64,000 nucleotides of DNA, from positions 27,501 through 91,500 of the IMG/VR virus record IMGVR_UViG_3300046477_000628; one strand, written 5' to 3'. This stretch comes from a virus. Under the pieces are notes generated by a model that was not told the origin of the DNA, did no database searches, and saw only the letters and a list, made by a program, of their open reading frames with translations. The position numbers and the translations under genes were made by a program. Positions 17,488-44,275 of the stretch are shown here, piece after piece. Positions within the stretch are counted from its first letter, which is position 1, and each line of letters starts with the position of its first letter.

Positions 17488-17578
17488 CGTTATCGCGGCC
17501 GAGATCCGCGAACTCAACGGGGGCAACCGCCGCAAGTCTACGGCGAAGATCGTACCGCCTGACTACGTCGAGGTCTGA
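17474..17578 (+). CDS. 34-residue basic mini-protein
   Basis: ATG 17474 overlaps the end of the fibre gene by 14 nt, and the TGA at 17576-17578 overlaps the next ATG. The peptide begins MSKFSVIAAEIRELNGGN and ends VPPDYVEV; it has a basic middle (RRKSTAK). The tight stop-start coupling on both sides suggests it is really translated. Function is unknown. Confidence 0.45.
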   Translation: MSKFSVIAAEIRELNGGNRRKSTAKIVPPDYVEV

Positions 17579-18444
17579 TGCTTACACTCCTACTCTTACC
17601 ATCCGTCAGCGGCTCCTCCACGATCATTGCCTCTGGTGGGATGGCACAGGGCGGCCGCGCCAATCTTCCCACCCACGGCAACTTCATCACGTTCGGCCTG
17701 GGTTCGACGGTAGTCGATCTGCTGCGGCAGGGATACTTCTCAGGGTCGCAGGCGACGATCAGCGGCAATCTCATCACGTTCGGGTTGGGATCGACGATCC
17801 CCGACCTGCTGCGTCAAGGATACGTCCCTGGCCCATCTCAGATCATTCCGCCCACTTCTCTCGTCGAGAACGTCATCGTCCAGGGCATGGGTGGACCCGT
17901 CCACGACATGCTGCTTCAAGGGTACAAGGGCCTCTCGACGACGATCTTCGCGTCGGCCGGGATGAAGCTCGGCGGCGGCGGCTTCCAGGTCGGCGGCATC
18001 CCCGAGACATTTCTCGCCGCACTCGTGGCCGCAATCCGCGGTAGTTCCGATTTGGCCGTATCAATTGGAAGCCCGGCACGAATCTACACAAATTGGCCCG
18101 GCGCCAAGGTGAAATTGCCGTTCGTGAAGATCGACGACTACACCGAGGAACAGCCAGGCGAGGCCGTCGAACACAACCAGATCAGGCTCACACTCGGGAT
18201 CTACGGTAATAGCCTGACCACGGTTCGCACCTGCGGAGAGGCCGTCCAGAATTTCATCGACAGCCGAAACCAGAACAACACCTCGACTCGGCAACCGCTG
18301 GTGTGGGCCGACGGTATCGAGCAGGGCTGCAACCGTCAACCCACGCTGCCTCCGCAGCGGCTCGCAAAGACCATGTACGGCGTGGATTTCTTCTGCTGGG
18401 AACTCGACTACGAATTCGACTTCGATCCAGAATTTCAGCACTAA
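17578..18444 (+). CDS. Glycine-repeat protein with C-terminal tail-terminator-like domain
   Basis: 288 residues. About 1-140 holds short repeats: ITFGLGSTVVDLLRQGY and a second copy, a diverged third (MLLQGYKG), and GGMAQGG and GGFQVGG glycine motifs. About 143-288 is a compact domain (ETFLAALVAAIRG, RIYTNWPGAKVKLPFVKI, QPGEAVEHNQIRLTLGIYG, EQGCNRQPT, GVDFFCWELDYEFDF) that reads like DUF3168-type tail terminators, and it is clearly paralogous to the C-terminus of the 1367-residue protein at 40172. It may cap the tail tube or attach a fibre. Confidence 0.6.
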   Translation: MLTLLLLPSVSGSSTIIASGGMAQGGRANLPTHGNFITFGLGSTVVDLLRQGYFSGSQATISGNLITFGLGSTIPDLLRQGYVPGPSQIIPPTSLVENVIVQGMGGPVHDMLLQGYKGLSTTIFASAGMKLGGGGFQVGGIPETFLAALVAAIRGSSDLAVSIGSPARIYTNWPGAKVKLPFVKIDDYTEEQPGEAVEHNQIRLTLGIYGNSLTTVRTCGEAVQNFIDSRNQNNTSTRQPLVWADGIEQGCNRQPTLPPQRLAKTMYGVDFFCWELDYEFDFDPEFQH

Positions 18445-18462
18445 CTGAAAGGTGATATCGAG

Positions 18463-18918
18463 ATGGCTCTGCTTGTCTGCCACGAAGGGGAACTCCAGTT
18501 GATGAGCGACCTGATGGGCGGGGGCTCGCTGGAGAACTGGCTCCTCTGCCTGTTCAACTCCAACATCACGCCCGCCGAGACGGACGCCGCCGCCACCTAC
18601 ACCGCGCACGAGACGGCGTTCACGAGTTACGCTCGCAAGACGCTGACTCGCTCGATCGGTTCGTCCACGTGGAATACCCCGGTGTCTCAGGCACCGTCCG
18701 GATCTCCCCCGTGGTCGTCGAGGACAGCGGTCGGCCACACCCAGTACGGGTCCGCGCCGCAGTCGTGGACCTGTGGCACCACCGGAGACACCATCTACGG
18801 GTACTTCGTCCTGGGTGCCAGCAGCGGCAAACTCATCATGGCCGAGGCGTTCGCCACCCCGAGAACGCTTGCCAATGGGGATATACTCAGTCTCCAGCCT
18901 GTATTCGAAAATGCTTAA
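18463..18918 (+). CDS. Virion protein paralogous to the product at 30206
   Basis: 151 residues. GGGSLENWLLCLFNSNITPA, then TAHETAFTSYARKTLTRSI and GDTIYGYFVLG align with GGGSLENILLGLFAASHTPA, TAIEASFSGYSQKTLTRSI and TVYGHFWKG of the protein at 30206. Both look like small beta proteins of the tail region. The end overlaps the minus-strand HNH gene by 4 nt. No family recognised. Confidence 0.6.
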   Translation: MALLVCHEGELQLMSDLMGGGSLENWLLCLFNSNITPAETDAAATYTAHETAFTSYARKTLTRSIGSSTWNTPVSQAPSGSPPWSSRTAVGHTQYGSAPQSWTCGTTGDTIYGYFVLGASSGKLIMAEAFATPRTLANGDILSLQPVFENA

Positions 18919-19580
18919 TTGTTGATGTGACCGATGTTTGAGATGCGACGATGTATGATCAGTGGAGTTGATAGCGCCTTCTCAACGCTCCACCCCCTTC
19001 GGTCGATGCGAAACGTAAGTGCTGCCCTCGTGAGGCCAGTAATCTCGACCCACTCGGCAAGGCACTTGGTCTCTCCCTTGTACGTCAGCATCCGATTGTT
19101 GCTCTTGTTGCGAGCCTGCTCCTCCATGGTGGCCCATCGGACGTTTCCTGGCTCGTAGTGGCCATTTGACTCTTTCCTGTCGATCGTGTGGTCAAGCGAA
19201 GGACATGGACCAATATGGGAGTAGAAGTTCTCGAATCCCTTCTCCCCCAGCCATTCGTCGCAGATTTTTACGCCTTTTCCGCCGTAGTGCTTGTAGTCAC
19301 CGCGAGATTCCTGTGTGCATCTGAGGATCATGGATCTCCAGATATTGTGTTCTCTGGTGCCGCACATGCCGTGGGTGATGTTTCTGGCGGTTGTCACCTC
19401 GTCTCGTCGGCATCCGCAACTTGTTGACGTTCCCTTTTTGAGTGAATAGCAGTCAACGATCTTCTCGGTGCCGCACTGGCAGCGGCACAACGCTTTGGCC
19501 CTTCCACCTGAGTCGCGTGGGGCCAGCGAGATCACAGTGTAACGTCCGAACTCTTTGTCGATCATCTCTTCCGCTTTCAT
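18915..19580 (-). CDS. HNH homing endonuclease with N-terminal zinc-ribbon and C-terminal DNA-binding module
   Basis: 221 residues on the minus strand. The N-terminus (FGRYTVISLAPRDSGG, CRCQCGTEKIV, STSCGCRRDE) is a cysteine-rich DNA-binding unit; the central part (SLDHTIDRKESNGHYEPGN, VRWATMEEQARNKSNN) is the classic HNH core of phage homing nucleases; the C-terminus (YKGETKCLAEWVEITGL, LTFRIDRRGWSVEKAL) is the usual NUMOD-like helix-turn-helix. It sits between two tail genes in reverse orientation, as expected for a free-standing homing element. Confidence 0.85.
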   Translation of the reverse strand: MKAEEMIDKEFGRYTVISLAPRDSGGRAKALCRCQCGTEKIVDCYSLKKGTSTSCGCRRDEVTTARNITHGMCGTREHNIWRSMILRCTQESRGDYKHYGGKGVKICDEWLGEKGFENFYSHIGPCPSLDHTIDRKESNGHYEPGNVRWATMEEQARNKSNNRMLTYKGETKCLAEWVEITGLTRAALTFRIDRRGWSVEKALSTPLIIHRRISNIGHINN

Positions 19581-19619
19581 GCAGTGCCTCCTTCCGGCAC
19601 CTATCGCATGAATTCGGAA

Positions 19620-19630
19620 ATCGCTGTTTT
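19620..19630 (+). promoter_or_regulatory. TCGCTGTTTT element after the HNH insertion
   Basis: ATCGCTGTTTTC, about 35 nt before ATG 19662, resembles the CTGTTG elements before the capsid and tape-measure genes. It may restart + strand transcription after the reversed HNH gene. Confidence 0.2.
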
Positions 19631-19661
19631 CGAGACGGTCAGTATTTGAAGCGAGGACTTG

Positions 19662-20834: not shown

Positions 20835-20967
20835 ACTGACAAGGTGATCCCGGCGCGCCGGGACTCACTGCGTTCGCTTGACAGGGTGACAAGGTGACCA
20901 AATACAGGCCCCTCACCTTGTCACCCGGTCACCTTGTCACCTTGTCAATTCAGAAGGGAGCCTTTGA
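20823..20967. repeat. Repeat-rich insertion flanked by 12-bp direct repeats (MITE/REP-like)
   Basis: GGGAGCCTTTGA occurs at 20823-20834 and again at 20956-20967. Between them are multiple copies of TGACAAGGTGA or its complement: an inverted pair at 20878-20899 and 20927-20948 pairs over 22 positions with one mismatch. Outer ends are also inverted (TGACAAGGTGA at 20838, its complement near 20939). No coding potential. Confidence 0.65.
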
Positions 20968-20969
20968 TC

Positions 20970-22850: not shown

Positions 22851-22859
22851 TCCCAAACC

Positions 22860-24086
22860 ATGCCACGAACTACCTGGACCGGAACATGGTTTGGGCCAGT
22901 CAGCCTAAGTGGTCCTATCGGTCACGGTGGCACAGGGTTCGGCGGTTCCGCGTCGGTCGTTCATTACGCGGCCAATCCGTCTGCGACCGGCGGCATGTCG
23001 TTCGGGGGTCACTCCGCAGCCAATACCGTCGCCCAGTCCGGGGCTGGCGGCATGGGCCTGGGTGGCCACGCCACACCCTCCGATAGTGCTCGTCCTGCCG
23101 AGACTGGAGGATTGAGCCTGGGCGGCTCTACCCAGGGCTCTGTGGGCGTCCGTGTGGCACGCAGTGCCTCCGGGGGCGTATCCTTCGGTGGACGCGTCCA
23201 GACGCTGCTGACGCGTTCCACGGTCGCCTCGGGCGGCATTGGTTTGGGTGGCCAAGCCAAACTCATTGCGGGTGGCGGCGCGACGATCTTCGGGATCGGC
23301 GGAATGGCCCTTGGAGGCCAGCCGTCTCCGCTGACTGCATTTCATCCGGACCACTCCGGGGGAATCCAGTTAGGCGGCAAGTCGGCACGAGCCAGCGGGG
23401 TGTCCAGTAATGCCAGCGGAGGAATCAGGCTTGGCGGACACGCTGCCCCCAATAATTCATGGCGGATCGCCGCGACCGGTGGTATCAGGTACGGTGCTGG
23501 AGACCGCGGCACAAACCTCATCTACAACGTCTACACTAACACGGGCATCGGGGACCACGTCAGTTATCTTGCCCCGGTATTCACGACGAATCTCCTCTTC
23601 TACACGCCGCCGCCCTTGGTTGGTCCGTGCGACTGGTCGTTTCACGTGCGTGCCGAAGACGTAGAGACCGTAGAGGAAGAGAAGAACCTCGACGCCAGGC
23701 TGCGTATCGTCATCGACGCCAACGGCACCGACATCACGGGGCGGCCGAGTTCCCCCACCAAGATCGCGGTATTCCAGGTCAAGGGCGGAGTGATCCGCGT
23801 CCAGTGGATGTTCGTGCCCAGACAGGGTTCGTCTCCTCCTACCAAATTCAACGTCTATGCAGGGACGCCGTTGATCAATTACCTGGCCCCGGTGACCAAC
23901 GTTGGTTACGTCGGGAGCGGGAGTTACTCGGCGACCATCAGCGGCCTGACCGCAGACCTTACGTATCAGTTTGGTGTCCGCGCTTACAACGCCGTGGCCG
24001 AAGATCCGAACACCGAGGTCGTGTCGGCGACGATCGACGGTACCGGCCCCGCGCCACCCGACAACTTCACGATTTCTGCAATCTGA
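22860..24086 (+). CDS. GGxxxGG-repeat fibre protein with C-terminal FN3-like domain
   Basis: 408 residues. About 20-215 carries nine GGxxxGG motifs at roughly 20-residue spacing (GGTGFGG, GGMSFGG, GGMGLGG, GGLSLGG, GGVSFGG, GGIGLGG, GGMALGG, GGIQLGG, GGIRLGG) plus a degenerate GGIRYGA. This predicts a repetitive glycine-rich fold such as a beta-solenoid or polyglycine-like shaft. The C-terminal 190 residues include an FN3-like unit (YSATISGLTADLTYQFGVRA). Related repeats occur in the proteins at 17578, 31575 and 40172. It immediately precedes the tail tube gene. Confidence 0.6.
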   Translation: MPRTTWTGTWFGPVSLSGPIGHGGTGFGGSASVVHYAANPSATGGMSFGGHSAANTVAQSGAGGMGLGGHATPSDSARPAETGGLSLGGSTQGSVGVRVARSASGGVSFGGRVQTLLTRSTVASGGIGLGGQAKLIAGGGATIFGIGGMALGGQPSPLTAFHPDHSGGIQLGGKSARASGVSSNASGGIRLGGHAAPNNSWRIAATGGIRYGAGDRGTNLIYNVYTNTGIGDHVSYLAPVFTTNLLFYTPPPLVGPCDWSFHVRAEDVETVEEEKNLDARLRIVIDANGTDITGRPSSPTKIAVFQVKGGVIRVQWMFVPRQGSSPPTKFNVYAGTPLINYLAPVTNVGYVGSGSYSATISGLTADLTYQFGVRAYNAVAEDPNTEVVSATIDGTGPAPPDNFTISAI

Positions 24087-24100
24087 CACAGGGGGGCTCA

Positions 24101-24544
24101 ATGCCTACTCCAACCAATTCGTTCATGAACTCGTCGGGTTGGCAGTTCACTCCAAGCGGCAGTTCCGCCATCCCGATCATCAAGGTAAAAGACTGGAACC
24201 TTAACAAGGGGATCAGTCGCGTCCGCGACTCTGCGGACTACGACGTATTCACCACGATCAACGTCTGCGATCACCAAGATCCGGTGATCACGCTCAGCAC
24301 GTTGAACGCATTCTCTCTGGTGCTCGTTGACCCGAGCGTCATCGGCACGTTGTTCGGCGTTGTACGCGATTCGTTCAACGGAGCACTCACCGGAGGCGGT
24401 GCGGTCTCGCTGACATTGACCAACGCCTCGATCATGGAAGACCAGGGGTCCGGTGCTCACCGGCAGCTCGCCCACAAGAGCCTGCACTTTTGCTCGTTCT
24501 CCACCGACGGCGTCACGTCTCCGCTGTCGATTGCCTCGGTCTAA
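24101..24544 (+). CDS. Major tail (tube) protein
   Basis: 147 residues from ATG 24101 after a GGGGGG purine run. A small beta-rich protein (SGWQFTPSGSSAIPIIKVKD, ADYDVFTTINVCDHQDPVIT, AVSLTLTNASIMEDQGSG) with the size and character of siphovirus tube proteins. The surrounding order, with chaperones and tape measure 2-3 kb downstream, supports the assignment. It would polymerise into the tail tube around the tape measure. Confidence 0.65.
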   Translation: MPTPTNSFMNSSGWQFTPSGSSAIPIIKVKDWNLNKGISRVRDSADYDVFTTINVCDHQDPVITLSTLNAFSLVLVDPSVIGTLFGVVRDSFNGALTGGGAVSLTLTNASIMEDQGSGAHRQLAHKSLHFCSFSTDGVTSPLSIASV

Positions 24545-24560
24545 TCTGAAGGAGATTCTG

Positions 24561-24920: not shown

Positions 24921-25420
24921 ACAGCCGAAACTCCTGGTTCGCGGTAGCGTGGCTCCAGGCGATTGTGCTCGTAGGGATAGCGGGTGTCAGGTACGGAGAG
25001 CACAGCGTAGGACCGCAACCAGTCACCCCAACGCCTCACGTCGATCCTGTCAAGCCAGAGCCCGACAAGCCCGCGCCGCCCCCGATCGACCCCACGCCTC
25101 CGGCTCCCAATCCGGCCCCCGAGAAGTCGGTGTTCTTCAGGATCGGCCAGTCCTACCAGGGTGTGCTCGCGACGAGCTGCGCTGCCGGCTGGAAGTCAGG
25201 GCAGATCGCGATCATCGCGGGCAAGAATCCGGACGACGCGCTGAATGTGGTATCGAAGTCGTGGGGCAACGCGCTCAAGCCCAAGTATGACAGCATAATC
25301 AAGCCAGAGATCGCCAAGATCGCCGGTGACCCCAAGAACTACGGAGACGCTGAGAAGGCTGCGGTGGCGAAGGCGTTCGGTGATCTCAGCGAAGGCCTCG
25401 CCTCGGGAGCCGCGAAATGA
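24917..25420 (+). CDS. TM-anchored, proline-rich protein (possible spanin or lysis accessory)
   Basis: 167 residues from GTG 24917, overlapping the previous stop as GTGA. The N-terminus is a single hydrophobic segment (about 6-24, WFAVAWLQAIVLVGIAGV), then a Pro-rich linker (about 34-70, many P with D/K), then a soluble domain (SVFFRIGQSYQGVLATSC, ALNVVSKSWGNALKP). This topology suits an inner-membrane protein with a periplasmic domain. It is directly coupled (ATGA) to the papain-like peptidase, which suggests a lysis role but does not prove it. Confidence 0.5.
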   Translation: MNSRNSWFAVAWLQAIVLVGIAGVRYGEHSVGPQPVTPTPHVDPVKPEPDKPAPPPIDPTPPAPNPAPEKSVFFRIGQSYQGVLATSCAAGWKSGQIAIIAGKNPDDALNVVSKSWGNALKPKYDSIIKPEIAKIAGDPKNYGDAEKAAVAKAFGDLSEGLASGAAK

Positions 25421-26331
25421 CCGACGAACAGATCCAGAAACTGCTTGGCTGGCGAGGCATCGACGCTGTCCAACAGCATCTCGTCCAGGGCGTCCCCGAC
25501 TTCTCCGACGTCGCCTCTGATCTCTACTACGGGAGCAGGGGAGACGATCAGTTCTACCTCCTCTACAAGGCCATGTACGAGGTGTGGGGCACGCAGGATA
25601 CGCCGTACGTGGCCCAGGAGATCGGCGATTGTGTTTCGCACGGATTCTCGCATGCGAATGACTGTCGTCAGTGCATCGAGATCGCACTCGACGGCTCCGG
25701 AGAGTTCCGCGAGACCGACACCGAGTTCATGTACGGGGCGAGCCGGGAGGTTGCGGGCATCCTCGGTCCCTCCGATGGATCATACGGTGGTGCCGTGGTC
25801 AAGGCCGCGACTCAGATCGGGATGGTGAGCCGCGAGATGCTCGGCACCGACGGCAAGTACAGCGGTGCCAGGGCGAAGCAGTGGGGGATGACTGGTCCAC
25901 CGGCCAAGTACAAGGCGATGGCCGCCGACTACAAGATCGGTTCGTACGCGGCGGTCAAGAACTTCGACGATGCCGTGGCGGCGCTCAAGAACGGATACCC
26001 GATCCTGGAGTGCTGCGGCGTCTGGGGAAAGGGAGAGCGCGACCAGGACGGGTTCATCCAGGGGTTCGGCCGCGGAGGCCACTGTCAGGCCATCCTGGCG
26101 GCTCGCCTGGACAAGCCCGGGCTCCTGGTGTTCAACTCTTGGCCGGAGTCCGCGTACAGCGGACCCAGGCCCATGGACATGCCCCAGCAGGGCTACTGGA
26201 TCACGCAGAAGCAAGCGAACGCGTGGTTCGCCATGGGCGAGGCCTACGCGCTCTCCTCGACACCCTACTTCAAGAAACGCGACATCCCCAAGTCGTGGAA
26301 GCTCGACGGTGGCGCTTTCCCTTCACTCTGA
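25417..26331 (+). CDS. Papain-fold (C1-like) cysteine peptidase, candidate endolysin
   Basis: 304 residues. The catalytic triad of the papain fold is visible: Cys72 in EIGDCVSHGFSHA, His222 in GRGGHCQAIL, and Asn240 in VFNSWPE, with His and Asn at the usual spacing. No signal peptide. It lies between a TM/Pro-rich protein and a small membrane protein, in a compact coupled cluster, so it is the best endolysin candidate in the window, which otherwise lacks a recognisable lysozyme or amidase. It could instead process virion proteins. Confidence 0.6.
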   Translation: MTDEQIQKLLGWRGIDAVQQHLVQGVPDFSDVASDLYYGSRGDDQFYLLYKAMYEVWGTQDTPYVAQEIGDCVSHGFSHANDCRQCIEIALDGSGEFRETDTEFMYGASREVAGILGPSDGSYGGAVVKAATQIGMVSREMLGTDGKYSGARAKQWGMTGPPAKYKAMAADYKIGSYAAVKNFDDAVAALKNGYPILECCGVWGKGERDQDGFIQGFGRGGHCQAILAARLDKPGLLVFNSWPESAYSGPRPMDMPQQGYWITQKQANAWFAMGEAYALSSTPYFKKRDIPKSWKLDGGAFPSL

Positions 26332-27272: not shown

Positions 27273-28991
27273 ATGGCTAATAGGCGCTACGAAATTTCTT
27301 TGATTGTGAACACTCAGCAATTGACGCAGGCCGCCAACGCAGCCAATCAGGCTCAGGCGAGCGTCAAACTTGGTGCGACTCAAGTCGCCCAAGCTATGCA
27401 GGGCGTTGTCAACACGGTGACCAGCTATTTCGTGGGCATCCAGGGTGTCCGCGAGGCATGGCGACTCGCAACAGCCGCACTTCAGGAGCATATGCGGCTC
27501 CGCAAAGAACTTGCGGATATGAGTCGCACGGATGCTCAAAAAGCAGACGAGTACCGCAAGAGCCTTCGCGAGTACGTTCGTAACGCAGGCGGCTTTACCG
27601 ATCCCTCTAAAGGCATGAAGTTGTTCCAGGAGGCGGGACAATTTCAGAAGGACACAGGACTGGAAGGAAAAGAAGGCGTCGATTTTTTAACTCGCTGGGC
27701 CAGCGACGTGTCCCAGTACATCGGAGACCCCGGCAATAAGAGCAAGGCTGGGCTCATCAATGAGGCCCAAGGGAAATACGTCAGGGATAAGATCGGGAAA
27801 ACAGTCGCGGGCATGGGTATTCCGGGAAAGGCCGGCGTCAAACTTGGTGGCGCGATCATCGGAGCCACCAACTGGAATCAATTCGGGAACAAAGCCGGCG
27901 CGACCGCACATGCTGGATTCGAGAGGTTTCTTCAGATCTCATCGGAAGGCAAAGGAGACGTCGAACGCAACATGGAACTTGGTGCCAGGTTCATCAACGA
28001 AATGGTCCAGGTAGACCGAAGTGAAGGCCGAATCGGAGGAGAGGGCAATACGGCAACAGATCGCGCAGCAGTTCTATTGCGAGAGGTCTCCGAATACAAT
28101 GATCAGGAGGCCGAGGTTTTCGCCAGGAATGCGGTCGAATTCGCCCGCCAAACCGGCAAGAAGTCTGTCGCCAAGACTCTCAAGGAGGCAGGCATAAACA
28201 TGAGCGATAATCCCGTCGAGGACTTCGTAAAACTTCAGAAGTATTTCAAGAAACAAAAGGGAGGGAAAGTAGGAGAGGCCAACGAGACGATGATCGACTT
28301 CATGCGCAACAAGATGAAGGGTAACATTCGGAGTGCGGCCGGCACCTATGCCATAGCTATGGCGGAAGAAAAAGGCTTAGGGCAGGCTGCCATGGAAGCC
28401 GTGAAAGGAATCACTCCGGATACCGTTGCCGGTCTCCAGGCGAAGTGGCTTGAGGCTGACCCTTCGATGGCGATGTCCCAGGCCAGAGAGGCTGCCGCAG
28501 CCGAGGCTCGCAATAAGGGGCTTCTCCAGCTCCACGCTGAGACCGCGAGAACAAGGGCCGAAGAGTTATACACGGCTCGCGGATACGGAGTCCTCGGAGA
28601 TCCGAGATCCAGTATCGAGAAAGGTTCTTTGATGAACCATTTCCCATTCACTATGTTCCAGGCTGGATGGGATGAGAAAAAAGAGGGTCCTGGTTTTGAA
28701 CTTTACAAGGAGTTGATGCTCAGGAATCACCCAGAGCAGTTCCAGGGATATGACAAGCTGACACCGGACATGCAGCGGGCGACCATGAACGCGGCGACCG
28801 TCGGATACTGGAACTCCGACGAAGCCAGCAGAGCCAACAAGTTCAATAAAGAAGTCGGAATCTATGAAGCACGCGAGGGCAAGGACGTGATCGCCTTGCT
28901 CGAAGAATTGGTTCGTGTCGCCAAAGAGCAAGCGCAGGGGCCTAAAGCAGTTCCGATGCCGGCACCCCAGGCGAACATGGTCAAGCCTTGA
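27273..28991 (+). CDS. Tail tape measure protein
   Basis: 572 residues, mostly alpha-helical and Ala/Gln/Lys-rich (LTQAANAANQAQASVKLGA, MRLRKELADMSRTDAQKADE, QAREAAAAEARNKGLL). It follows the G/GT chaperones, the invariant tape-measure position, and determines tail length. 572 residues is short for the class, so a relatively short siphovirus tail is expected. A mid-protein hydrophobic stretch (GVKLGGAIIGATNW) may help DNA passage. No lytic transglycosylase or peptidase motif was seen. Confidence 0.8.
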   Translation: MANRRYEISLIVNTQQLTQAANAANQAQASVKLGATQVAQAMQGVVNTVTSYFVGIQGVREAWRLATAALQEHMRLRKELADMSRTDAQKADEYRKSLREYVRNAGGFTDPSKGMKLFQEAGQFQKDTGLEGKEGVDFLTRWASDVSQYIGDPGNKSKAGLINEAQGKYVRDKIGKTVAGMGIPGKAGVKLGGAIIGATNWNQFGNKAGATAHAGFERFLQISSEGKGDVERNMELGARFINEMVQVDRSEGRIGGEGNTATDRAAVLLREVSEYNDQEAEVFARNAVEFARQTGKKSVAKTLKEAGINMSDNPVEDFVKLQKYFKKQKGGKVGEANETMIDFMRNKMKGNIRSAAGTYAIAMAEEKGLGQAAMEAVKGITPDTVAGLQAKWLEADPSMAMSQAREAAAAEARNKGLLQLHAETARTRAEELYTARGYGVLGDPRSSIEKGSLMNHFPFTMFQAGWDEKKEGPGFELYKELMLRNHPEQFQGYDKLTPDMQRATMNAATVGYWNSDEASRANKFNKEVGIYEAREGKDVIALLEELVRVAKEQAQGPKAVPMPAPQANMVKP

Positions 28992-29204: not shown

Positions 29205-29705
29205 GTGTCGATCATTGCGTCGTCGTGGCAGTTCAGACATCTGGTGGCCGCCCTCGGCGACTCCTTCAATATGACGGAGACCACCTACAGTGGCCGTCCT
29301 TTAGGGTATGAAGTCGCGGACCTGATTGCAATCGGTATTCTTGTACAGTCACAGGCAGGCAAAGCCCCGAATGGTCAGGCGTGGAAAGCGCTCACCGCCA
29401 AGTACCTGGCGTGGAAGATCAGCAAGGGTTACGACACACGCCGAAACTTCATGACGGGCCGCATGCTTGATTATCTGCAAATCCGCGGCACTGTCATGCT
29501 GATGAAAGACGGGATGACGATGCGGTACGGGCTGACGTCATTCGAGCAGTTGAAGGCCGAGTGGACCAGCGAGGGAACACGCCACAACAAACGCCCCGCG
29601 CGTCCCTTTTACGACCTGAGCAAAGACACCTGCGACAGCCTCGACATATTCCTCGACAAGCATCTCGACTGGTACATCGTAAGCCTAGGAGCCAGGAGAA
29701 TCTAA
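29205..29705 (+). CDS. Tail-associated virion morphogenesis-like protein
   Basis: 166 residues from GTG 29205. The central region (GKAPNGQAWKALTAKYLAW, DTRRNFMTGRMLDYLQI, MRYGLTSFEQLKAEWTSEG, PARPFYDLS) resembles the phage virion morphogenesis family (Mu gpG / HK97 gp10-like) in which a basic helix and the G.P..GLS/PFYDLS type ending are usual. It follows the tape measure, so a role at the tail tip or in tail completion is likely. Confidence 0.5.
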   Translation: MSIIASSWQFRHLVAALGDSFNMTETTYSGRPLGYEVADLIAIGILVQSQAGKAPNGQAWKALTAKYLAWKISKGYDTRRNFMTGRMLDYLQIRGTVMLMKDGMTMRYGLTSFEQLKAEWTSEGTRHNKRPARPFYDLSKDTCDSLDIFLDKHLDWYIVSLGARRI

Positions 29706-30205: not shown

Positions 30206-30649
30206 GTGGCAGCAAAGGTTCTCAAGACTGGTCAACAGCAGTGGCTCACAGACCTGCTCGGCGGCGGCTCTCTGGAAAACATCCTGCTCGGGTTGTTCGC
30301 CGCGAGCCATACGCCTGCGGTCACGGACACCCTATCCACTTATACTGCCATCGAAGCGTCATTTTCTGGGTATAGCCAGAAGACGCTGACCAGGTCCATC
30401 GCTGGTGGCACGTGGGGCGCGGTGGCGTTGACTGGTAGCACCATAGACGGAACCAACCACAACGCGATCTCCACCTACGGGACGACCCAGACGTGGAACG
30501 CGACGTCGGCACAGACCGTCTACGGCCACTTCTGGAAGGGCAACACGTCCGCAGTCGGGTTGCTCGCGGAGCAGTGGGCGTCGAGCGTTTCTTTGGTCAA
30601 TCCTTCGAGCGTATCACTGGTTCCGGTGATCGAGTTGGGTAGCAACTAA
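30206..30649 (+). CDS. Virion protein paralogous to the product at 18463
   Basis: 147 residues from GTG 30206, preceded by GGGAGG. It shares GGGSLENILLGLF, the SxYxxKTLTRSI block and a TVYGHFW strand with the protein at 18463. Small beta protein of the tail region; function unknown. Its stop overlaps the next ATG (TAATG). The 88-nt gap before it shows nothing recognisable. Confidence 0.6.
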   Translation: MAAKVLKTGQQQWLTDLLGGGSLENILLGLFAASHTPAVTDTLSTYTAIEASFSGYSQKTLTRSIAGGTWGAVALTGSTIDGTNHNAISTYGTTQTWNATSAQTVYGHFWKGNTSAVGLLAEQWASSVSLVNPSSVSLVPVIELGSN

Positions 30650-31574: not shown

Positions 31575-32873
31575 ATGCCGACAGTCCGTGTTGGAGGCAA
31601 CAGCCCGGTATACACGTTCAGGCTGGTCAGTTCGCTCAATGGACTCGGCCAGCCGTTCTCGTTTACTCCCACCTTTACGCCTCCCGGCGTCAGTGTGTCT
31701 TCCGCGGGCGGACCCGTCCTCGGTGGCACGTCCCAGGGATTGCTCTCGTTCTCCGTGACCGGCACCGGCGGCGTAGTCGCGGCGTCCTCGCTTAGCCATC
31801 CTGGCATCGTGTTCACAGTCTCGGCATCGGGTGGACCCGTGCTCGGCGAGACCGTGGCTCAGCCGAAACTCGGATTCACGATCACCGCGTCCGGTGGACC
31901 TGTACTCTCGGAACTGGTGTCCGCTGCCTCGACGACGACCGTGACTGGCAGTGGTGGCCCTGTACTCGGGGAAACGATCGCTCAACCGAGTGCCGGGTTT
32001 ACGGCCACGGCGCACGGTGGCCCTGTGCTCTCCGAGCTGGTGTCGGCGCCGCTCACCGTGACCGTGACTGCACACGGTGGCCCCGTCCTGTCCGGTTTGT
32101 CTCAGGCGCATGGGCGATTCTACCAGCAGACGTGGATCGGCGGCGTCTCCTACGGAGGATCTGCCGAGAACGATGCCAACCTTGTTCTGCACGGATTCAC
32201 GACGTGGGTCATCCTGGACCTGACGGTTCGACGCGTCGGCGATGAAATCTTGCTCCAGTGGGAATCATCGCTGCCCAAGGGTTACTGGTATCAGGTCTAT
32301 ATCAACAATGTCCTGACCAAGTGGACGCAGGAAACCAAGGTCGTCATTCCGTACCCGGTGGGCAACGTCCAGTACAAGGTGGGCGCCGTTCCAACGGGCC
32401 AGCAATCGTTCGATTTCTCCTCTACGTTCCCGGTGACGCCGAAGCGGGAGATCACGCTCAATTGGACCGGTGGCCGCTACCTCGGCGACGACATTGCCGG
32501 GTTCCACGTCTATATGAGCGACGGCCCCAACGTGGCCTCGATCGACTACAACAGCATCGTGGCCACGGTTCCGGCGTTCGACGGCAACAACATCACCGAT
32601 GGATTCGGGCTCGGCGGCTTCGGCGACGGCGGGTTTGGCCGCGCCAGCAACCAGTACACGTGGACCAGCGACCATCTGGCCCGCGGCCTGTGGCGCGTCG
32701 GCGTCAAGTCGTTCGACATGCTCGGCAACGAAGGCAGCCCTGACGAGGGATCGATCCAGGTTGACGGACCACCTGATCCGCCGGCCCGCGACACTCGCGG
32801 GAATCGCGTAGAGTACACCTACAATCAGCCCACGCACACCGCGACCGTGACGTGGCTCCCGAGCCCAGGATAA
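31575..32873 (+). CDS. GGPVLxE-repeat fibre protein with FN3-like C-terminus
   Basis: 432 residues with SD GGGAGGA. About 35-180 contains six GGPVL(G/S)(G/E) motifs plus GGVVAAS and GGVSYGG at about 21-residue spacing, a variant of the glycine repeat in the proteins at 22860, 17578 and 40172. The C-terminal half has FN3-like strands (DEILLQWESSLPKGYWYQVY, REITLNWTGGRYLGDDIAGF, LWRVGVKSFDMLGNEGSP). Likely a shaft plus globular binding tip. Confidence 0.55.
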   Translation: MPTVRVGGNSPVYTFRLVSSLNGLGQPFSFTPTFTPPGVSVSSAGGPVLGGTSQGLLSFSVTGTGGVVAASSLSHPGIVFTVSASGGPVLGETVAQPKLGFTITASGGPVLSELVSAASTTTVTGSGGPVLGETIAQPSAGFTATAHGGPVLSELVSAPLTVTVTAHGGPVLSGLSQAHGRFYQQTWIGGVSYGGSAENDANLVLHGFTTWVILDLTVRRVGDEILLQWESSLPKGYWYQVYINNVLTKWTQETKVVIPYPVGNVQYKVGAVPTGQQSFDFSSTFPVTPKREITLNWTGGRYLGDDIAGFHVYMSDGPNVASIDYNSIVATVPAFDGNNITDGFGLGGFGDGGFGRASNQYTWTSDHLARGLWRVGVKSFDMLGNEGSPDEGSIQVDGPPDPPARDTRGNRVEYTYNQPTHTATVTWLPSPG

Positions 32874-32876: not shown

Positions 32877-33395
32877 ATGTCAAACTCCTACACTTCGCGA
32901 GCCAGAATAGCCAAGCCGGCCCGATCTGACCGCAACTGGGACATCCCGGTCAACGCCAACTCGGATCTGCTCGACGCAATCAACGCGATCGGTGCCGGCT
33001 GCGTGACCCCGACCGAGATTCCATCGGTGTCGCTGAACGTCACGGTTGCGTCGTGTTCCTATCAGAAACTAGACGGCAGCGTGGGGGCGTTCCCTGGTGC
33101 TACGTCTCAGATCGTGACGGCATCATCGACCACAGTTCTGTATCTGGACGCCACGGGAACGCTCACCACCGCCGTTTCATATCCATCCGCCGCCCACACG
33201 AAACTCGGGACCGTCGTGGCCGGCGTGGGCACCATCCTGTCGATCACCGACGACCGCATGCCACTCCCGCTGTCTCTGTCTCCGGCCGGTGGAATTCTGG
33301 TTAATGCGGCCTCAGACGGGGCAGCGGCGAGCGGCGGCGTGCCGATCGGCGGTTTTTACAGAACGGGCAACGCGGTCCAGGTACGTCTCGCGTGA
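32877..33395 (+). CDS. Tail fibre/baseplate-type protein
   Basis: 172 residues. N-terminal polar region (RIAKPARSDRNWDIPVNANS, then LLDAINAIGAG) resembles the start of phage fibre adaptor proteins; the rest is a small beta domain (TVLYLDATGTLTTAVSYP, GTVVAGVGTILSITDD) ending GGFYRTGNAVQVRLA. It directly precedes the hub-like gene with a 10-nt gap. Confidence 0.5.
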   Translation: MSNSYTSRARIAKPARSDRNWDIPVNANSDLLDAINAIGAGCVTPTEIPSVSLNVTVASCSYQKLDGSVGAFPGATSQIVTASSTTVLYLDATGTLTTAVSYPSAAHTKLGTVVAGVGTILSITDDRMPLPLSLSPAGGILVNAASDGAAASGGVPIGGFYRTGNAVQVRLA

Positions 33396-33405
33396 GGAGC
33401 AAGAG

Positions 33406-35793
33406 ATGCCAGGCGATGCAGGCACAGGCGATCTCAATGCGGACGAAATCCCGTTGGGGCGTCCATCGGAGATGCTGGGCGTCTTCCGATGGTCCCAGGC
33501 AGAAGGTGATAATAGCTGGTTCATGCAGCCGCAGCCCAATCTCGTCGTGACCAATATCACGATCCGCGAAGATGCCAACCCCCCAGTGGCGACGTTCCGC
33601 TATCGGTTCGACCCCAATTTTCTGCCCGGCAACTTTCCGACGCGGTTCGACCAGGCATACGGAAATCCTCCAGATCGAGAAGAGGTTCTTCATGTAGATG
33701 ATCGCATCGTCGTAATCCGCGATCTCGGTGACGGAGAATTCCTCTATGTGTTCGATGGCTTCGTGACGCAACCTCAGGCGATCGTGGATGGCAACACGGA
33801 GACAGTGGTGGTCACGGCGATGGGGACTCCGTTTCGCGAGTGGGATTTCGTTCTCCCGGGGGCGCTGTGGCAGGACGAAGATGAAACATCGAAACCCTCG
33901 TGGTATTACACGGATACGGTTGCAAGATTCAACCCTCTGGGGAAAGCGAACGCGCAGCCAGACAATGCACCGGATGACGACAACGAGACGCCTCAGATCA
34001 AAGGCGACTATTACTTCGTCGCGGACGGGGACACCGCGTATCCGTTCACGTCGGTAGACGACCCAGAGGAAGCCTCGAATCCCAGGGCGCAACTCTGGAC
34101 CCTGGCCATGGCCGTCCAGTATTGCGTGCTCGTCGGAATCGAGCATCCTCTCGGGCTCCAGGGTGCTCCCGACCTGCGAGACGTCGCCCACGATTACCCA
34201 TTGCCGTACGTGAAGGTTCCTGACTTCGTCGATCTCACCAAGTTGCTCAAGGCCATCGTCCCCAAGGACGACGGTGGCCCCATCGACCTCCACGATCCTG
34301 AAACCTACGACAAAGTCAACATCATGTGCCCCGATGTCGAGGTGACAGGGATCTCGTGGCCGGAGGCGGTTTCGAGGCTGATCCGCCCGTTCGGGTTCCA
34401 CTATCGGTTCGACATCCAGGTCAACGAGGATAACCAGCTCCCAGAGTGGATCATGACCTTCTACCGGGAGGATGACGACAAGCTCACCACGACATTGCGT
34501 CTCCAGGAACCCAGGAGTGACCTCGATCCAGGCCAGACCAATGTCGGCGCGATTCGCATGGCACGGGATGCCGTTCATGTCGCCAACGAGTTCGAGATTG
34601 ACACCGCGATGGTAGAGTATGAGGCCACGTTCTTGCTGGCACCAGGGTTCCCCATAGACGACGCGGACCTAGAGAATCTTCCGTTGTTCATGGACGGAGG
34701 AGATGGCCCCGACAACCGGCTCAAATATCGAAGGTTCATCTTTGGCGAGAACGGCGCCGAGGTATGGGACGCCCAAGCCAAAAACATGTCTAGTCAAGAT
34801 CTCGACACGAAGTTCTACAAACTATTCACCATCGACGACAGGGACCGTCCTCTATTAAAAGACTTCAAATTCCTGCATCGCAAGAGGAAGCCGATCGGAC
34901 AATTGCATTCCAAATTACCGGATGGACAGGCATATCGATACCAACTTCACGTGTCGGATTACAAAAACTACACAAAAGATGCTGATGGTAGCCCACCGAG
35001 CCGGATTCCAATTATATGGAACGGCGATGGCAAATGGCAACTGGTATCTTCCACCGAGTACAGTCTGCTCGATGACCGCATCGGCATCCAACTCACATGC
35101 TTTGATCCAAACGGGTTTTCGGCTGGGAACCCCCTGAAGCACGACGAGAAGCCTCTCACTGAGGTTTTCGAGAACGAGAATGGCCTTCTTAATGTCGTCC
35201 AGTGGCTCACAAACGGTGGACGTGGGATTATCTTTGCGTTGACATGCGTGATTCAGTTTGATCATGACATTGACCTCGTCCTACCCAGAAGGGATTCGTC
35301 GCTCACTGGATACCGTATCCGCCGAAAACTCGATCAGCGTGATCGATGGAAGAAGCAGATCGCAACCAAGTATTCGATGATTGCCAAGGACGTTTCGCCG
35401 GACAAATTCAAAGATGACAAGGGTAACGCCAAGGATTTTTATTACGCTCGCGACGACACCAAGGTCGCCAAGAACATCATGCAGGGATACCAGAGATCTC
35501 ATGAATCTGGTTCGCACGCAGGCAACTTCACGATCCCGAGATTCTCGACCGCGTACAACGTGGGCATGACCGTGGAGTCGATTGACGGCCGCGACGTCAA
35601 TATGCAGATCAACTCTGGTGCTGGCCAGGGCGAGACACCAAGATACTCTCGAATCCAGTCGATCGCGTGGACCTGCGAGGGCCAGCAAACCACGACGGTG
35701 ACGCTGACCGACGAGCGGGCCGACCCCATGGCTCGCCGTACCGCGTTGCAGGCAAGACTGCACCACGGGAGAGCACACGGCGGAGCACACTGA
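33406..35793 (+). CDS. Baseplate hub / tail-tip protein candidate
   Basis: 795 residues; ATG 33406 is chosen because GAGGAG lies at 33394-33399. The N-terminal part (VVTNITIREDANPPVATFRY, EEVLHVDDRIVVI, FLYVFDGFVTQPQAIVDG) looks like the beta-barrel ring-forming domains of gp27/gpL-like hubs, followed by WPEAVSRLIRPFGFHYRF and long mixed regions. The C-terminus resembles an OB or late-control-type unit (VGMTVESIDGRDVNMQINS). Size and place after tape measure and tip proteins support a tail-tip hub. Confidence 0.5.
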   Translation: MPGDAGTGDLNADEIPLGRPSEMLGVFRWSQAEGDNSWFMQPQPNLVVTNITIREDANPPVATFRYRFDPNFLPGNFPTRFDQAYGNPPDREEVLHVDDRIVVIRDLGDGEFLYVFDGFVTQPQAIVDGNTETVVVTAMGTPFREWDFVLPGALWQDEDETSKPSWYYTDTVARFNPLGKANAQPDNAPDDDNETPQIKGDYYFVADGDTAYPFTSVDDPEEASNPRAQLWTLAMAVQYCVLVGIEHPLGLQGAPDLRDVAHDYPLPYVKVPDFVDLTKLLKAIVPKDDGGPIDLHDPETYDKVNIMCPDVEVTGISWPEAVSRLIRPFGFHYRFDIQVNEDNQLPEWIMTFYREDDDKLTTTLRLQEPRSDLDPGQTNVGAIRMARDAVHVANEFEIDTAMVEYEATFLLAPGFPIDDADLENLPLFMDGGDGPDNRLKYRRFIFGENGAEVWDAQAKNMSSQDLDTKFYKLFTIDDRDRPLLKDFKFLHRKRKPIGQLHSKLPDGQAYRYQLHVSDYKNYTKDADGSPPSRIPIIWNGDGKWQLVSSTEYSLLDDRIGIQLTCFDPNGFSAGNPLKHDEKPLTEVFENENGLLNVVQWLTNGGRGIIFALTCVIQFDHDIDLVLPRRDSSLTGYRIRRKLDQRDRWKKQIATKYSMIAKDVSPDKFKDDKGNAKDFYYARDDTKVAKNIMQGYQRSHESGSHAGNFTIPRFSTAYNVGMTVESIDGRDVNMQINSGAGQGETPRYSRIQSIAWTCEGQQTTTVTLTDERADPMARRTALQARLHHGRAHGGAH

Positions 35794-36125: not shown

Positions 36126-36133
36126 GAGGAATC

Positions 36134-39708: not shown

Positions 39709-39712
39709 TCCT

Positions 39713-40120: not shown

Positions 40121-40171
40121 CGGCTTCCGCGATTTGCCAATAGGTAGACACCGCTCACCCAGGGGCAACCG

Positions 40172-43100
40172 ATGGCGATCCAATTCAGCAACCTGAGATA
40201 CTTCGCGACACCCAACGTGTCGCACATGTTCTATAATGTGCCTGTCGCCAGCCAGTCGTTCAAGTTGCGCCTCGATTCTCCGGCAGCCAACTTCGGCGGC
40301 ACCGTCAATATCCTGGTTCGCAACATCTTCGACTTCGTTCATTCGTTCTGGGGTTCGGCGACGACGTCCGGCAACCTCAGCTTACAACTGAACGGAGTTG
40401 GAGGGTCGGTCTCGGCGAACATTCCTCTCACTGTGGGGACCGTCTACGTAATCTGTCTCGTGTGGGACGGCACAAATGGAGTGCAGACGGCGTACATCAA
40501 CGGTGTCCCGCAAATTCTAGGGCACATTTCCGGGCTCACGAACAATCGCATCGATCCCATCTGGCTTGGGCCGTACGCGGCACAGAGCCTCGTCACCTAC
40601 ACGATCGGCGATTACAACGCCTGGGACAATTACGGGCTGACCAGTGGTGACGCAGCCTTCCTCACGAACAACGGAGACCCGACGACGATCGGCACCGGGG
40701 CGCCATGGCGTTGCCAGTGGACGATGGCCGGCACGACGGGCGTTGCCGCGGCAGTCGGCGACAACGGGCTCAAGAACTTCTACGGCACCGGAGCTGACTT
40801 TGCATCGGTGACGGGATCGGGTACGGCGACGTATGCAGATCCTTTGGTATGGGCACCCACGGTCACTCCGCATCCCTACGTGACCGGGTGCGGCAAGTCG
40901 ATCGCGACCACGTTCACGCTCAACACGGATGGATCGGCGGTGGTCCCGTCTCAGTTGTTGACGACCCCGACGATCAACGTTAACGGCACGGACCTTGGCG
41001 CGCTGACAAATCCTTGGTTCACCGGGTTCCATTGGTCCATTGTGTGGTCAACGCCGGGAAACGTGATGATCAATCCCGGAGACGTCGTGATCCTGACGGC
41101 GCCGCCGGCATGGGCCAATACGCCGTCAGGATCGGTGGGTGCGTTGTCGGCGACGATCGACAATCGCAGCGGCAGGTCGTCGGTCCAGGTAGAGAGCCTG
41201 TCCAAGACGCTGCGAATGGGATTCAACCATCCGTCTCCCGGAGGCTCGGAGTATTACCCATTCCTCAATACCAAGTTCAAGACGGCCGGAAACAACGGCT
41301 ACGGCAAGTTTCACCCTGGACACGGTTTCGAGGTGGCCAACCAGCCCTGCGAAGCTGGCAAAGCCCTGCTGGTATGGGACGCTACCCACACCGGCAGCCC
41401 TGGCCCGGCCATGTTCTCGCTCCAGAGCAATAACACCGCCAGGGTCACGGTGACTCACGATCCGACCTATGATGTCTCTCCGTCCGGCGGCGTCGGATAC
41501 GTGCGAGCCTACGACATCTCTTACGTGGCCAGCAGCGACTACAAGACGGCTTACGGCGGATGTGGAGTGGGGATCAATTGCGACGACCCATCGTTCACAG
41601 GAACTCCAAACTATGATAATCTCTGGATCTACTTGCCAGGAGAATGGGATGCCGTGAACGGGTCCGCGGTCTTTGACCGCTCAGATCAATTCGCGCTTTC
41701 CAGGATTTATTTGGATCGTGTCAGGCAAAGCATTGGCAGCATGAGAGCCGTGGACATGACGGCTTGCGGAGGTGCCTGCGAGACCTACCCTTACCCGGAA
41801 CTCCTGATCCCGGACACGCAAGAATTCTGGTGGGGGTTCAACCCCGTCGAACTGCCCAACGTGGGATTCACGTCGATCGGCCCGGTAGACGTCACGGCAA
41901 CGCCATGGTTCTACTCGGCGCAGTTCCGTCAGTCCGCAAACCTGTTCTCGGCCACCCTGACCGACACGATCTCAACGACCCCCGCCGTCGGGACCAATGA
42001 GGTCTACCACTTCTCCGATGCCGCCACGGCTCCCTTGATGGCTGGCCTGGAGATCCAGATCGACTCCGAGATCATGAGGGTCATCAGCGTTACAGGGACC
42101 GCGGTGACGCTGTACAGGGGATCGAACGGAACCACTCCAGCCCCTCACTCGCCAGGCACTGTCACCGTCTTCGGGCGAGTGCCGATCAGCAACAAGGTGT
42201 CCGCTGACGGCACCGCGCCGTTCACCGCGCCCCTGTTCATGACGTGCAACCAACCTCACGGCATGACGACTTTGCACGGCTATTACCCGCAAGGCGTCAT
42301 CAATATCACGATGGCCGACGGGACGGTGGCGAACAATGTCGGGCTCAGTCAAATCTACGTCACAGGCCCCACTACATTCGTGTCGATCTGGTCCGGATAC
42401 TACCCATCGAAGCCCAGCGGGACCAAGCCGAGCACTACCTACACGCTTGATCCGGCCTCGACTTACATTCTGCGATGGTACTTCCCTCGCATGCCGCTTG
42501 ACGTCTATATCGGGATGGTTGCCAGGTTCCCCCACGCCAACCTGCACATCAACATCCCCAAAGATGCTTGCGACGACATGGTCTATGCGTACGCCTGGAA
42601 GGTGAGGGACGGATTCCCGGCCGGGCGGAAGATTTACGTGGAGCACCAGAACGAGCCCTGGAACTTCTCACCCCCATTCCAGGCGTGGCTTTTCAGCACG
42701 TTCATGACCACGATGGCGGTGCCCTCCAGCCTGATCCAGTTTCACGATTACCGCGACTATTACATCTATCGAGCAATACAGGTTCACAAGATTTTCCGCG
42801 ACGTCTTCACGGCAGCAGGTCGCGGCTCCGAGATCATGGGGACGGTCAACTGCCAGATGAACAACGGGCCGTCCCAGGTGACCCCTTACTTGAATTTTGC
42901 GCTCGCCCAGGGACAGCCTCTCGACGCGGTCGCGTGCGCCCCTTATTACTCGCTGGGCATGAGCGGCAGCGGCATCGCGAACACCGTCGCGGCCTTCAAC
43001 GCGTGCGACGACGATCAGGCCGCCGAGATGGTGTTGCACGACATCACGTACGATTCAACAGGGATGGTGACCTGGATCAAAAGCATCTCAGATGCGGTCA

Positions 43101-44275
43101 CCGCTTACAACCAGGCCAATGGCAAGAATGCCATCATGATCGGCTATGAGGGGAACCTCGAATGGGCATCTCCGAATGGGTCGATTCACCATGACGAGCG
43201 AAGCCATGACATCCAGTACAACCCGAATTACTATCACGCCGAGCAAGGGTGGTACAAGATCCTCCAGGATCATGGATTTCAGAATCTGCACAAGTACGGG
43301 ATCGGGATTGGCTGGCCGCTCGCCTGGGGTGATTACCACGTGCGAACCCAGAAGCACAGCCTCGGAGACGGCTTGAACGGCGCGGCCAACAACCGCCATT
43401 TCAGCGTGAATCCTTCTTCGCCATTCTATGTCGCGCCAGGCCGGGGCCTGGATAGCGGGACGATGCTGGATCAGGATATCCAGGTTGACTCCGTGCGCGG
43501 GCAGGCATTCATCGATTGGAATGCCGGGGTCGGTGCGAGCGCTCCGACTTTCTCGGGTGGCGTGAAACTGGGTGGCGTCGGACCCGTCCACGGATTCTAC
43601 ACCGTCAGCGCCATTGGAGGCATAAGCGACGGCGGCGTCTACACCCAGGGGAATTCCCTGCGATGGGCCGGCGGCGAACGGCTGGGTGGCGTTGCTACTT
43701 ACTCCAATGCCTTGAACGTCATTACCAGCGGTGGCTTCAGGCTGGGCGGGACGATCTTTCGTGGCTCCAATTACTTCGTGGTCGCCACCGGCGGCATGTC
43801 GGAGGGGGGACGGATCATCTTCGGCCCCGTGTACCGCACGTTCCTCGCGGCGCTGACGGTGACCATCCAGTTGAGTCCTCAACTGAAGGCCCTGTACGGG
43901 GGCGTGCCGCGCGTGTTCACGACGTGGCCAGGTGGCAAGGTCGCGCTGCCGTTTATCCTGATCGAGAATTACGTCGAGAGCCAGCCCGGCGAGGCCGTCG
44001 AGCACAACCGGATCTTCGTCCAGCTCGCGGTGTACGGGGCCGATGAGACAACGGTGCGCAGGTTTGGACGCGCTTTGCAAGACACCGTGGACTCCCCGAA
44101 CCAGAACCGCAGGTCAACCCGAGAACCCCTCTCGTGGATGACCGGTGATGAGCAAGGATGTAATCGCCAACCCACCACGCCCCCGATCCGAACCGGTCAG
44201 AAGTTCTACGGCACGGACCTGTTCAGGTGGGGGCTGATGTACCAGTTTGAGTTCGTCCCCTTGTTCCAACTTTGA
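40172..44275 (+). CDS. Giant fusion: LamG-like, clan GH-A glycosidase, GGxxxGG repeats, tail-terminator-like domain
   Basis: 1367 residues. About 1-215 is a LamG-like lectin fold (YVICLVWDGTNGVQTAYINGV). About 760-1100 is a TIM-barrel glycosidase: acid/base Glu828 in EHQNEPWNF and nucleophile candidate Glu993 in IGYEGNLEW, the NEP...E arrangement of clan GH-A. About 1130-1220 has five GGxxxGG motifs (GGVKLGG, GGISDGG, GGERLGG, GGFRLGG, GGMSEGG). About 1223-1367 is paralogous to the C-terminal tail-terminator-like domain at 17578 (FLAALTVTIQ, QPGEAVEHNRIFVQLAVYG, DEQGCNRQPT). It probably carries a glycan-degrading enzyme on the tail. Confidence 0.7.
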   Translation: MAIQFSNLRYFATPNVSHMFYNVPVASQSFKLRLDSPAANFGGTVNILVRNIFDFVHSFWGSATTSGNLSLQLNGVGGSVSANIPLTVGTVYVICLVWDGTNGVQTAYINGVPQILGHISGLTNNRIDPIWLGPYAAQSLVTYTIGDYNAWDNYGLTSGDAAFLTNNGDPTTIGTGAPWRCQWTMAGTTGVAAAVGDNGLKNFYGTGADFASVTGSGTATYADPLVWAPTVTPHPYVTGCGKSIATTFTLNTDGSAVVPSQLLTTPTINVNGTDLGALTNPWFTGFHWSIVWSTPGNVMINPGDVVILTAPPAWANTPSGSVGALSATIDNRSGRSSVQVESLSKTLRMGFNHPSPGGSEYYPFLNTKFKTAGNNGYGKFHPGHGFEVANQPCEAGKALLVWDATHTGSPGPAMFSLQSNNTARVTVTHDPTYDVSPSGGVGYVRAYDISYVASSDYKTAYGGCGVGINCDDPSFTGTPNYDNLWIYLPGEWDAVNGSAVFDRSDQFALSRIYLDRVRQSIGSMRAVDMTACGGACETYPYPELLIPDTQEFWWGFNPVELPNVGFTSIGPVDVTATPWFYSAQFRQSANLFSATLTDTISTTPAVGTNEVYHFSDAATAPLMAGLEIQIDSEIMRVISVTGTAVTLYRGSNGTTPAPHSPGTVTVFGRVPISNKVSADGTAPFTAPLFMTCNQPHGMTTLHGYYPQGVINITMADGTVANNVGLSQIYVTGPTTFVSIWSGYYPSKPSGTKPSTTYTLDPASTYILRWYFPRMPLDVYIGMVARFPHANLHINIPKDACDDMVYAYAWKVRDGFPAGRKIYVEHQNEPWNFSPPFQAWLFSTFMTTMAVPSSLIQFHDYRDYYIYRAIQVHKIFRDVFTAAGRGSEIMGTVNCQMNNGPSQVTPYLNFALAQGQPLDAVACAPYYSLGMSGSGIANTVAAFNACDDDQAAEMVLHDITYDSTGMVTWIKSISDAVTAYNQANGKNAIMIGYEGNLEWASPNGSIHHDERSHDIQYNPNYYHAEQGWYKILQDHGFQNLHKYGIGIGWPLAWGDYHVRTQKHSLGDGLNGAANNRHFSVNPSSPFYVAPGRGLDSGTMLDQDIQVDSVRGQAFIDWNAGVGASAPTFSGGVKLGGVGPVHGFYTVSAIGGISDGGVYTQGNSLRWAGGERLGGVATYSNALNVITSGGFRLGGTIFRGSNYFVVATGGMSEGGRIIFGPVYRTFLAALTVTIQLSPQLKALYGGVPRVFTTWPGGKVALPFILIENYVESQPGEAVEHNRIFVQLAVYGADETTVRRFGRALQDTVDSPNQNRRSTREPLSWMTGDEQGCNRQPTTPPIRTGQKFYGTDLFRWGLMYQFEFVPLFQL

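Follow-up and report, generated by a model that had tools for sequence, protein, structure and literature searches.

Tail terminators are usually viewed as small, purely structural ring proteins. Those that have been described, such as lambda gpU, SPP1 gp17 and the R4C and gene transfer agent (GTA) terminators (families phrog_176 and PF11367), are stand-alone proteins of about 110–160 aa. In R4C, the tips of the terminator hairpin bind the tail tube (PMC10276861). Glycan-binding modules are displayed at the neck of the lactococcal 936 phages by the neck passage structure and by CBM-bearing neck proteins (PMC6669499); in the 936 phages the neck fibre is a protein of its own, whose N-terminal ring is of the BppU type. 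Phage 812 carries separate decoration proteins on its terminator and stopper, and T4 and XM1 have collar fibres (PMC12886913, PMC10491603). These neck extras of 812, T4 and XM1 are again separate proteins, with no terminator fusion and no enzyme described. No account of a terminator–enzyme fusion came up in the literature searched, which excludes most subscription journals.

The phage considered here contains a domain that agrees with the known terminators in its predicted order of secondary structure elements and in its best fold matches. It differs from them in occurring twice, and in both cases at the C-terminus of a longer protein. It is not the small stand-alone protein expected of a terminator, since its two hosts are 288 and 1367 aa in length.

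Genome setting

The window analyzed is a stretch of 64,000 nucleotides, corresponding to positions 27501–91500 of a 91.5-kb viral record, with a G+C content of 58.7% and no tRNA genes. Judged by its genes, the source virus is a tailed phage: terminase and portal genes are recognizable by eye upstream of the window, and the major capsid protein matches phrog_3990 (E = 3.8e-37). The late part of the window encodes exonuclease, annealing-protein, primase and helicase genes. Searches with the capsid and portal proteins found no close viral relatives. Distant capsid relatives, with 24–26% identity, are found in actinobacterial siphophages, one of which (DumpTruck) has the gene order capsid, stopper, tail terminator, major tail protein, chaperone, tape measure. 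In our phage the gene for the 288-aa protein lies after the capsid gene and before a tape-measure-like gene. The candidates for tail-tube (24101–24544), stopper and adaptor proteins in the window lack confirmation by profiles.

Two further genes of this region may be mentioned. A 221-aa ORF at 18915–19580 lies among the virion genes on the opposite (−) strand, and is HNH or homing-endonuclease-like by eye. A 304-aa protein in the tail gene region (25417–26331, + strand) has a weak match to a phage peptidase (phrog_16701, E = 0.03).

Two proteins share a C-terminal domain

The initial annotation described two ORFs, for the 288-aa protein (17578–18444, + strand) and the 1367-aa protein (40172–44275, + strand), and suggested that their C-terminal ends are alike. 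Both are present at these positions, and the likeness is strong. The two proteins match with 176 bits and E = 1e-53 in BLASTP, and with E = 4e-54 in phmmer, where residues 116–287 align with 1196–1366. The last ~149 residues are 53% identical (E ~1e-50), and the sequence blocks quoted in that annotation are invariant, namely TFLAAL, WPGxKVxLPF, QPGEAVEHN and EQGCNRQPT. Copy 1 of the domain (150 aa) is encoded at 17992–18441 and copy 2 (149 aa) at 43826–44272, both on the + strand. When the final 150 aa are used as a tblastn query, the window yields these two loci alone (E = 7e-51), and the whole 91.5-kb record adds no other.

Of 29 positions at which the two copies share the same four-fold degenerate amino acid, only 10 also have the same third codon base. 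The silent sites are thus not conserved, implying that these are old copies which have been kept at the protein level, rather than the product of a recent DNA duplication.

Conservation is not uniform along the domain. The sequence QPGEAVEHN, which forms the predicted tip of a long β-hairpin (18151–18177 in copy 1 and 43982–44008 in copy 2, + strand), is identical at 9/9 positions, compared with 70/140 elsewhere in the domain; the block was picked after the alignment had been seen, and the nominal p = 0.003 is therefore a guide only. The N-terminal helix is less conserved (9/22). Overall, the best conserved parts are the hairpin, which is the predicted counterpart of the tube-contact hairpin of R4C, and the long loop 89–121, rather than the core.

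No further copies of the domain were found in phages (by tblastn), viral contigs, bacterial genomes or the PDB (by sequence), nor in 29 related records or 392 genomes of one phylum. The sole match among the viral contigs (L003) is a short chance match within an unrelated ORF, and the sole match among the 392 genomes (L156) is likewise due to chance.

The domain is not the only virion component present in duplicate here. The GG-repeat proteins described below are another example, as is a small virion-type protein encoded by two paralogous genes at 18463–18918 and 30206–30649 (both + strand; 44% identical). Relatives of the latter family occur in 42 viral loci, and in two of these, L009 and L011, they adjoin a major-capsid-like gene.

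The shared domain resembles tail terminators

The structure of the domain was predicted using AlphaFold2, with the two sequences as input. Confidence in the model is low (pLDDT 59.5, pTM 0.54), and its element order is α-ββββ-α-βββ, with the QPGEAVEHN tip on the predicted long hairpin. Foldseek searches with this model gave a consistent result. Against the PDB, 34 of the best 37 matches are neck or tail-cap structures from phages, GTAs or tailocins, including lambda gpU, T5 p142, R4C, the gene transfer agent and the SaPI1 neck. Of the remaining three, one is a Salmonella protein and two are chains of Listeria antigen B; a clearly unrelated fold first appears at rank 38. The best single PDB match has E = 0.006, and none is below 0.001. 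Because the individual PDB matches are weak, the evidence lies in the agreement among them. In BFVD, which contains predicted viral structures, there are four matches with E ≤ 0.001, headed by entries named “Tail terminator” and “DUF3168.”

Sequence profiles give a fainter signal. The tail terminator family phrog_176 has a single match in the record, to copy 1, with E = 0.004 per genome and E = 0.1 in an hmmscan of the domain. It finds nothing in copy 2 and nothing in 27 other phage records, and PF11367 has no match in the record. No profile of a known family matches the domain above its curated cut-off, and profile–profile comparison, for which a handful of terminators (annotated or presumed) served as references, gave no useful information.

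The initial annotation had proposed a terminator fold, and as a prediction this is borne out by the model, by the presence of lambda gpU among the best fold matches and by the phrog_176 signal. We consider it very likely, if not proven, that the shared domain has a divergent form of the tail-terminator fold (gpU / SPP1 gp17 / DUF3168), as the predicted structure indicates. The low confidence of the model and the lack of a significant sequence match to any known family could mean that the fold match is an artefact and the identification wrong. We regard this as very improbable, given that the fold searches are unanimous and that a separate weak sequence signal points to the same family.

The 288-aa protein

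The 288-aa protein consists of an N-terminal extension (residues 1 to ~140), followed by copy 1 of the domain. Direct reading of the extension reveals three copies of a unit of ~20 aa, xNxI[TV]xGxGxxxxDxLxQGY (17677–17925, + strand). These repeats are degenerate, and are related to the SGGxxLGG repeats of the 1367-aa protein, of the proteins encoded at 22860–24086 and 31575–32873, and of fibres in the related phages L009 and L011. The GC content of the extension by codon position is 0.59/0.49/0.78, against 0.59/0.48/0.83 for the major capsid gene, and because of this similarity the extension looks like genuine coding sequence.

Both this protein and the 1367-aa protein had been called adhesins. 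This is only partly right, as the 288-aa protein shows no clear sign of being an adhesin, given its position, its phrog_176 match and an extension made of repeats only. The simplest reading is that the 288-aa protein is this phage's own tail terminator, carrying an extension. This is probably correct, in view of the only phrog_176 match in the genome, the position between the capsid and tape-measure-like genes, and the presence of repeats alone before the domain.

The main competing explanation is that both proteins are fibres. The terminator fold would then have been exapted for docking or oligomerization at any site on the virion, such as the tail tip, with the real terminator encoded by a separate gene that has escaped recognition. 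Both copies do carry GG repeats of the kind common to fibre proteins, and copy 2 lies in the fibre region. In addition, L009 and L011 each have a separate small terminator-like protein, encoded after an adaptor-like gene, which the profiles fail to recognize, so that a terminator could be hidden in the window in the same way. Against this, a search of the window with the terminator-like proteins of L009 and L011 gives no relative, no other gene in the record matches phrog_176 or PF11367, and copy 1 is encoded between the capsid gene and the tape-measure-like gene. This explanation is thus rather unlikely, though it deserves to be kept in mind.

Domain structure of the 1367-aa protein

The 1367-aa protein is fibre-like, and consists of a lectin-like region, a glycosidase-family region, GG repeats and copy 2 of the terminator-like domain. 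The lectin-like region (40331–40510, + strand) was detected using phmmer against the PDB, where residues 54–113 match a pentraxin (3flp, E = 0.0064). The glycosidase-family region (41210–43501, + strand) covers about residues 347–1110, and its ends are approximate; it is defined by a profile of the bacterial family, by two glutamate motifs and by plasmid-borne relatives. The profile match itself covers residues 788–969, the part before ~780 being assigned by eye from the family alignment. Residues 627–667 form an insertion resembling phrog_1101. In the GG-repeat stalk (43553–43810, + strand), xxSGGxxLGG occurs five times at a spacing of about 20 aa; the stalk leads into the C-terminal domain. 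The fusion of a glycosidase-family domain to a terminator-like domain, as put forward in the initial annotation, is therefore real in the sense that both parts are found within one protein.

Repeats of this type form a stalk common to fibres of this lineage. Six to nine copies of a ~20-aa SGGxxLGG repeat are found in the proteins encoded at 22860–24086 and 31575–32873 (both + strand) and at L009:6794–8041 and L011:5380–6990, some of which have fn3 or Laminin_G_3 domains. The GG-repeat fibres of L009 and L011 carry Laminin_G_3. In these two loci the lectin and GG-repeat fibres remain separate, which implies that fusing such a fibre to a terminator-like domain was a step specific to the phage described here.

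The gene for the 1367-aa protein lies in the fibre region, after a hub-like gene (33289–35793) and outside any terminator slot. It is more likely that this protein is a paralogue, joined to a fibre. Its location after the hub-like gene also suits a different explanation, in which the 288-aa protein is the terminator and copy 2, in the 1367-aa protein, has lost its docking at the neck, serving instead as a C-terminal cap or trimerization tag of an ordinary tail-tip fibre, and kept by gene conversion or by chance. C-terminal folding or chaperone domains are frequent in fibres. On the other hand, the best conserved parts of the domain are the tube-contact hairpin and the loop 89–121 and not the core, and the unconserved silent sites argue against recent gene conversion. 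We consider this explanation improbable.

The glycosidase-like family

A profile made from 80 bacterial sequences matches the 1367-aa protein with E = 4.3e-16, and the family alignment shows that both of its glutamate motifs, NE(P/V)WN and YEG(G/N), are kept. The candidate catalytic acid/base is Glu828 in EHQNEPWN (42653–42655, + strand) and the candidate nucleophile is Glu993 in IGYEGN (43148–43150, + strand); each is invariant in the alignment. Such a pair of glutamate motifs is a signature of the clan GH-A glycosidases. The presence of a glycosidase had been claimed from the beginning, and the name is a well-founded deduction from the motifs and from membership of the family, where membership is to be distinguished from activity.

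The family (L056–L151) is large, with 561 or more relatives among bacterial genomes, and is also found in 16 viral loci. Many of the bacterial members come from planctomycetes, verrucomicrobia, cyanobacteria and rhizobia, an example being Shinella WP_306035508.1. The core of the family has no significant match in Pfam and no solved relative. The enzyme of the 1367-aa protein resembles the bacterial members in its profile and in both glutamate motifs, and differs from them in being divergent, in being set in a phage fibre, and in having the phrog_1101-like insertion.

One family member (L054) is located between an O-antigen ligase gene and a polysaccharide-export gene. In a crude test with a single query, a polysaccharide-export gene was found near a family member in 1/80 flanks. 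The link between the family and exopolysaccharide is therefore weak, and comes mainly from L054.

The phage may possess a second virion glycosidase. An 850-aa protein (9655–12207, + strand) contains F5/8-type domains and a chitobiase C-terminal domain (PF13290, E = 3e-16); its C-terminal half is like a β-propeller glycosidase by eye.

Possible terminator fusions in other genomes

A related combination is found in a phage unrelated to this one, on a 103-kb contig (IMGVR_UViG_3300035683_000001, here called L143). A gene at L143:7512–9563 encodes a protein of 683 aa, composed of an N-terminal α/β domain, a Pro-rich linker and a glycosidase of the same family (E = 3.6e-121). The gene overlaps the stop codon of a 129-aa gene, and a major tail protein gene (phrog_820, E = 1.6e-6) begins 84 bases downstream. 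Further downstream are a very long tape-measure-like frame and genes that by eye are like lambda M/L, K, I and J. Given this gene order, with nothing else between the Z slot and V, the fusion fills the slot of lambda U, that is, of the terminator.

The first ~145 residues of the L143 protein are predicted to form helix, strand, strand, helix, strand, although the model is poor (pLDDT 44). The best match to this model in the PDB is a tailocin cap, with E = 0.28. Also matched are lambda gpU, a phiXa neck protein, T5 p142 and further neck entries, mixed with kinases. The slot is thus a stronger argument than the fold for regarding the N-terminal part as a putative terminator; the predicted fold is weakly supported. 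In both phages the same glycosidase family is joined to a part that is terminator-like or occupies the terminator slot. They differ in that the terminator-like part is N-terminal in L143, where there is neither a lectin nor GG repeats.

We also looked at how common such fusions are. Searches of 777 genomes (392 + 385) with PF11367 gave 84 matches, in open frames of up to 392 aa. Of 21 frames longer than 250 aa, 15 were read (L157 is not counted among these), and each contains a small protein that starts at or just before the domain, within a longer empty frame. The long open frames around DUF3168 genes are therefore read-through of empty frame, with no true fusion among those inspected. Two of the best 50 fold matches in BFVD are long, namely A0A6J7WP33 (404 aa, with DUF1566) and A0A6J5L8B8 (946 aa), and these may be further terminator fusions.

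A possible arrangement at the neck

Our best explanation is that the 288-aa protein is the terminator ring protein, and that a duplicated copy of its domain became the anchor of an enzyme-bearing fibre at the neck. We give this about an even chance of being right. From the computed domain homology, fold (a weak model) and enzyme family, we infer ring formation, the position at the neck and enzyme activity as follows. The 288-aa protein would assemble into a hexamer, closing the neck end of the tail tube as a ring and bearing the GG-repeat extension at its N-terminus. The domain would then have been duplicated, the second copy becoming the C-terminal anchor of a fibre with a lectin-like region and an exopolysaccharide-type glycosidase. 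The 1367-aa protein might occupy one or more of the places in the neck ring, or build a ring of its own on the tail tube, and would hold an arm at the neck that both binds and cuts glycans. Since the helices of terminators lie on the outside of the ring, such an N-terminal arm could point outwards. The conserved hairpin tip and the less conserved N-terminal helix of the predicted structure fit with both copies docking on the tail tube with the N-terminal side outward. With arms of this size, steric hindrance may make a fully occupied ring impossible.

This arrangement can be compared with the 936 neck fibre. Unlike in that fibre, the anchor here would be the C-terminal terminator domain itself, enzyme included, with display at the neck being a prediction. 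Neither of our two proteins matches a family of the BppU-type N-terminal β-sandwich collar ring in Pfam or PHROGs. Coupling the ring domain directly to an enzyme would add a new form to the known ways of displaying glycan-binding modules at the neck.

With the second, independent fusion in L143, an enzyme mounted on the neck ring has to be taken seriously as a hypothesis. A wider suggestion is that the terminator ring is a mounting platform for enzymes that cut exopolysaccharide, which has arisen at least twice, with the enzyme N-terminal in the phage described here and C-terminal in L143. This is put forward tentatively, as somewhat less probable than not. If terminators do bear lectin or glycosidase arms, the neck would be a site of attack on the host surface, and more than a joint. 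There would then be a class of depolymerases that has been overlooked because annotation is focused on tail tips. The case also draws attention to a large uncharacterized glycosidase-like family, common to bacterial genomes and phages and open to direct assay.

Other neck-type proteins of this lineage also have features of interest. The adaptor-like proteins encoded at 4542–5399 (+ strand), L009:8053–8886 and L011:6994–7824 have, by eye, an extra Ig/BppU-like region at the N-terminus. Those of L009 and L011 are clear homologues (E = 1e-35), and the copy in the window is weakly similar to them (E about 0.1). Neck proteins with additional domains may be common in the lineage of this phage, L009 and L011. 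Finally, the gene at 29205–29705 (+ strand) has a weak Phage_tail_S/neck match (PF05069, E = 0.0017; phrog_26, E = 0.0036), and is located downstream of the tape-measure-like gene, an odd location for a neck gene.
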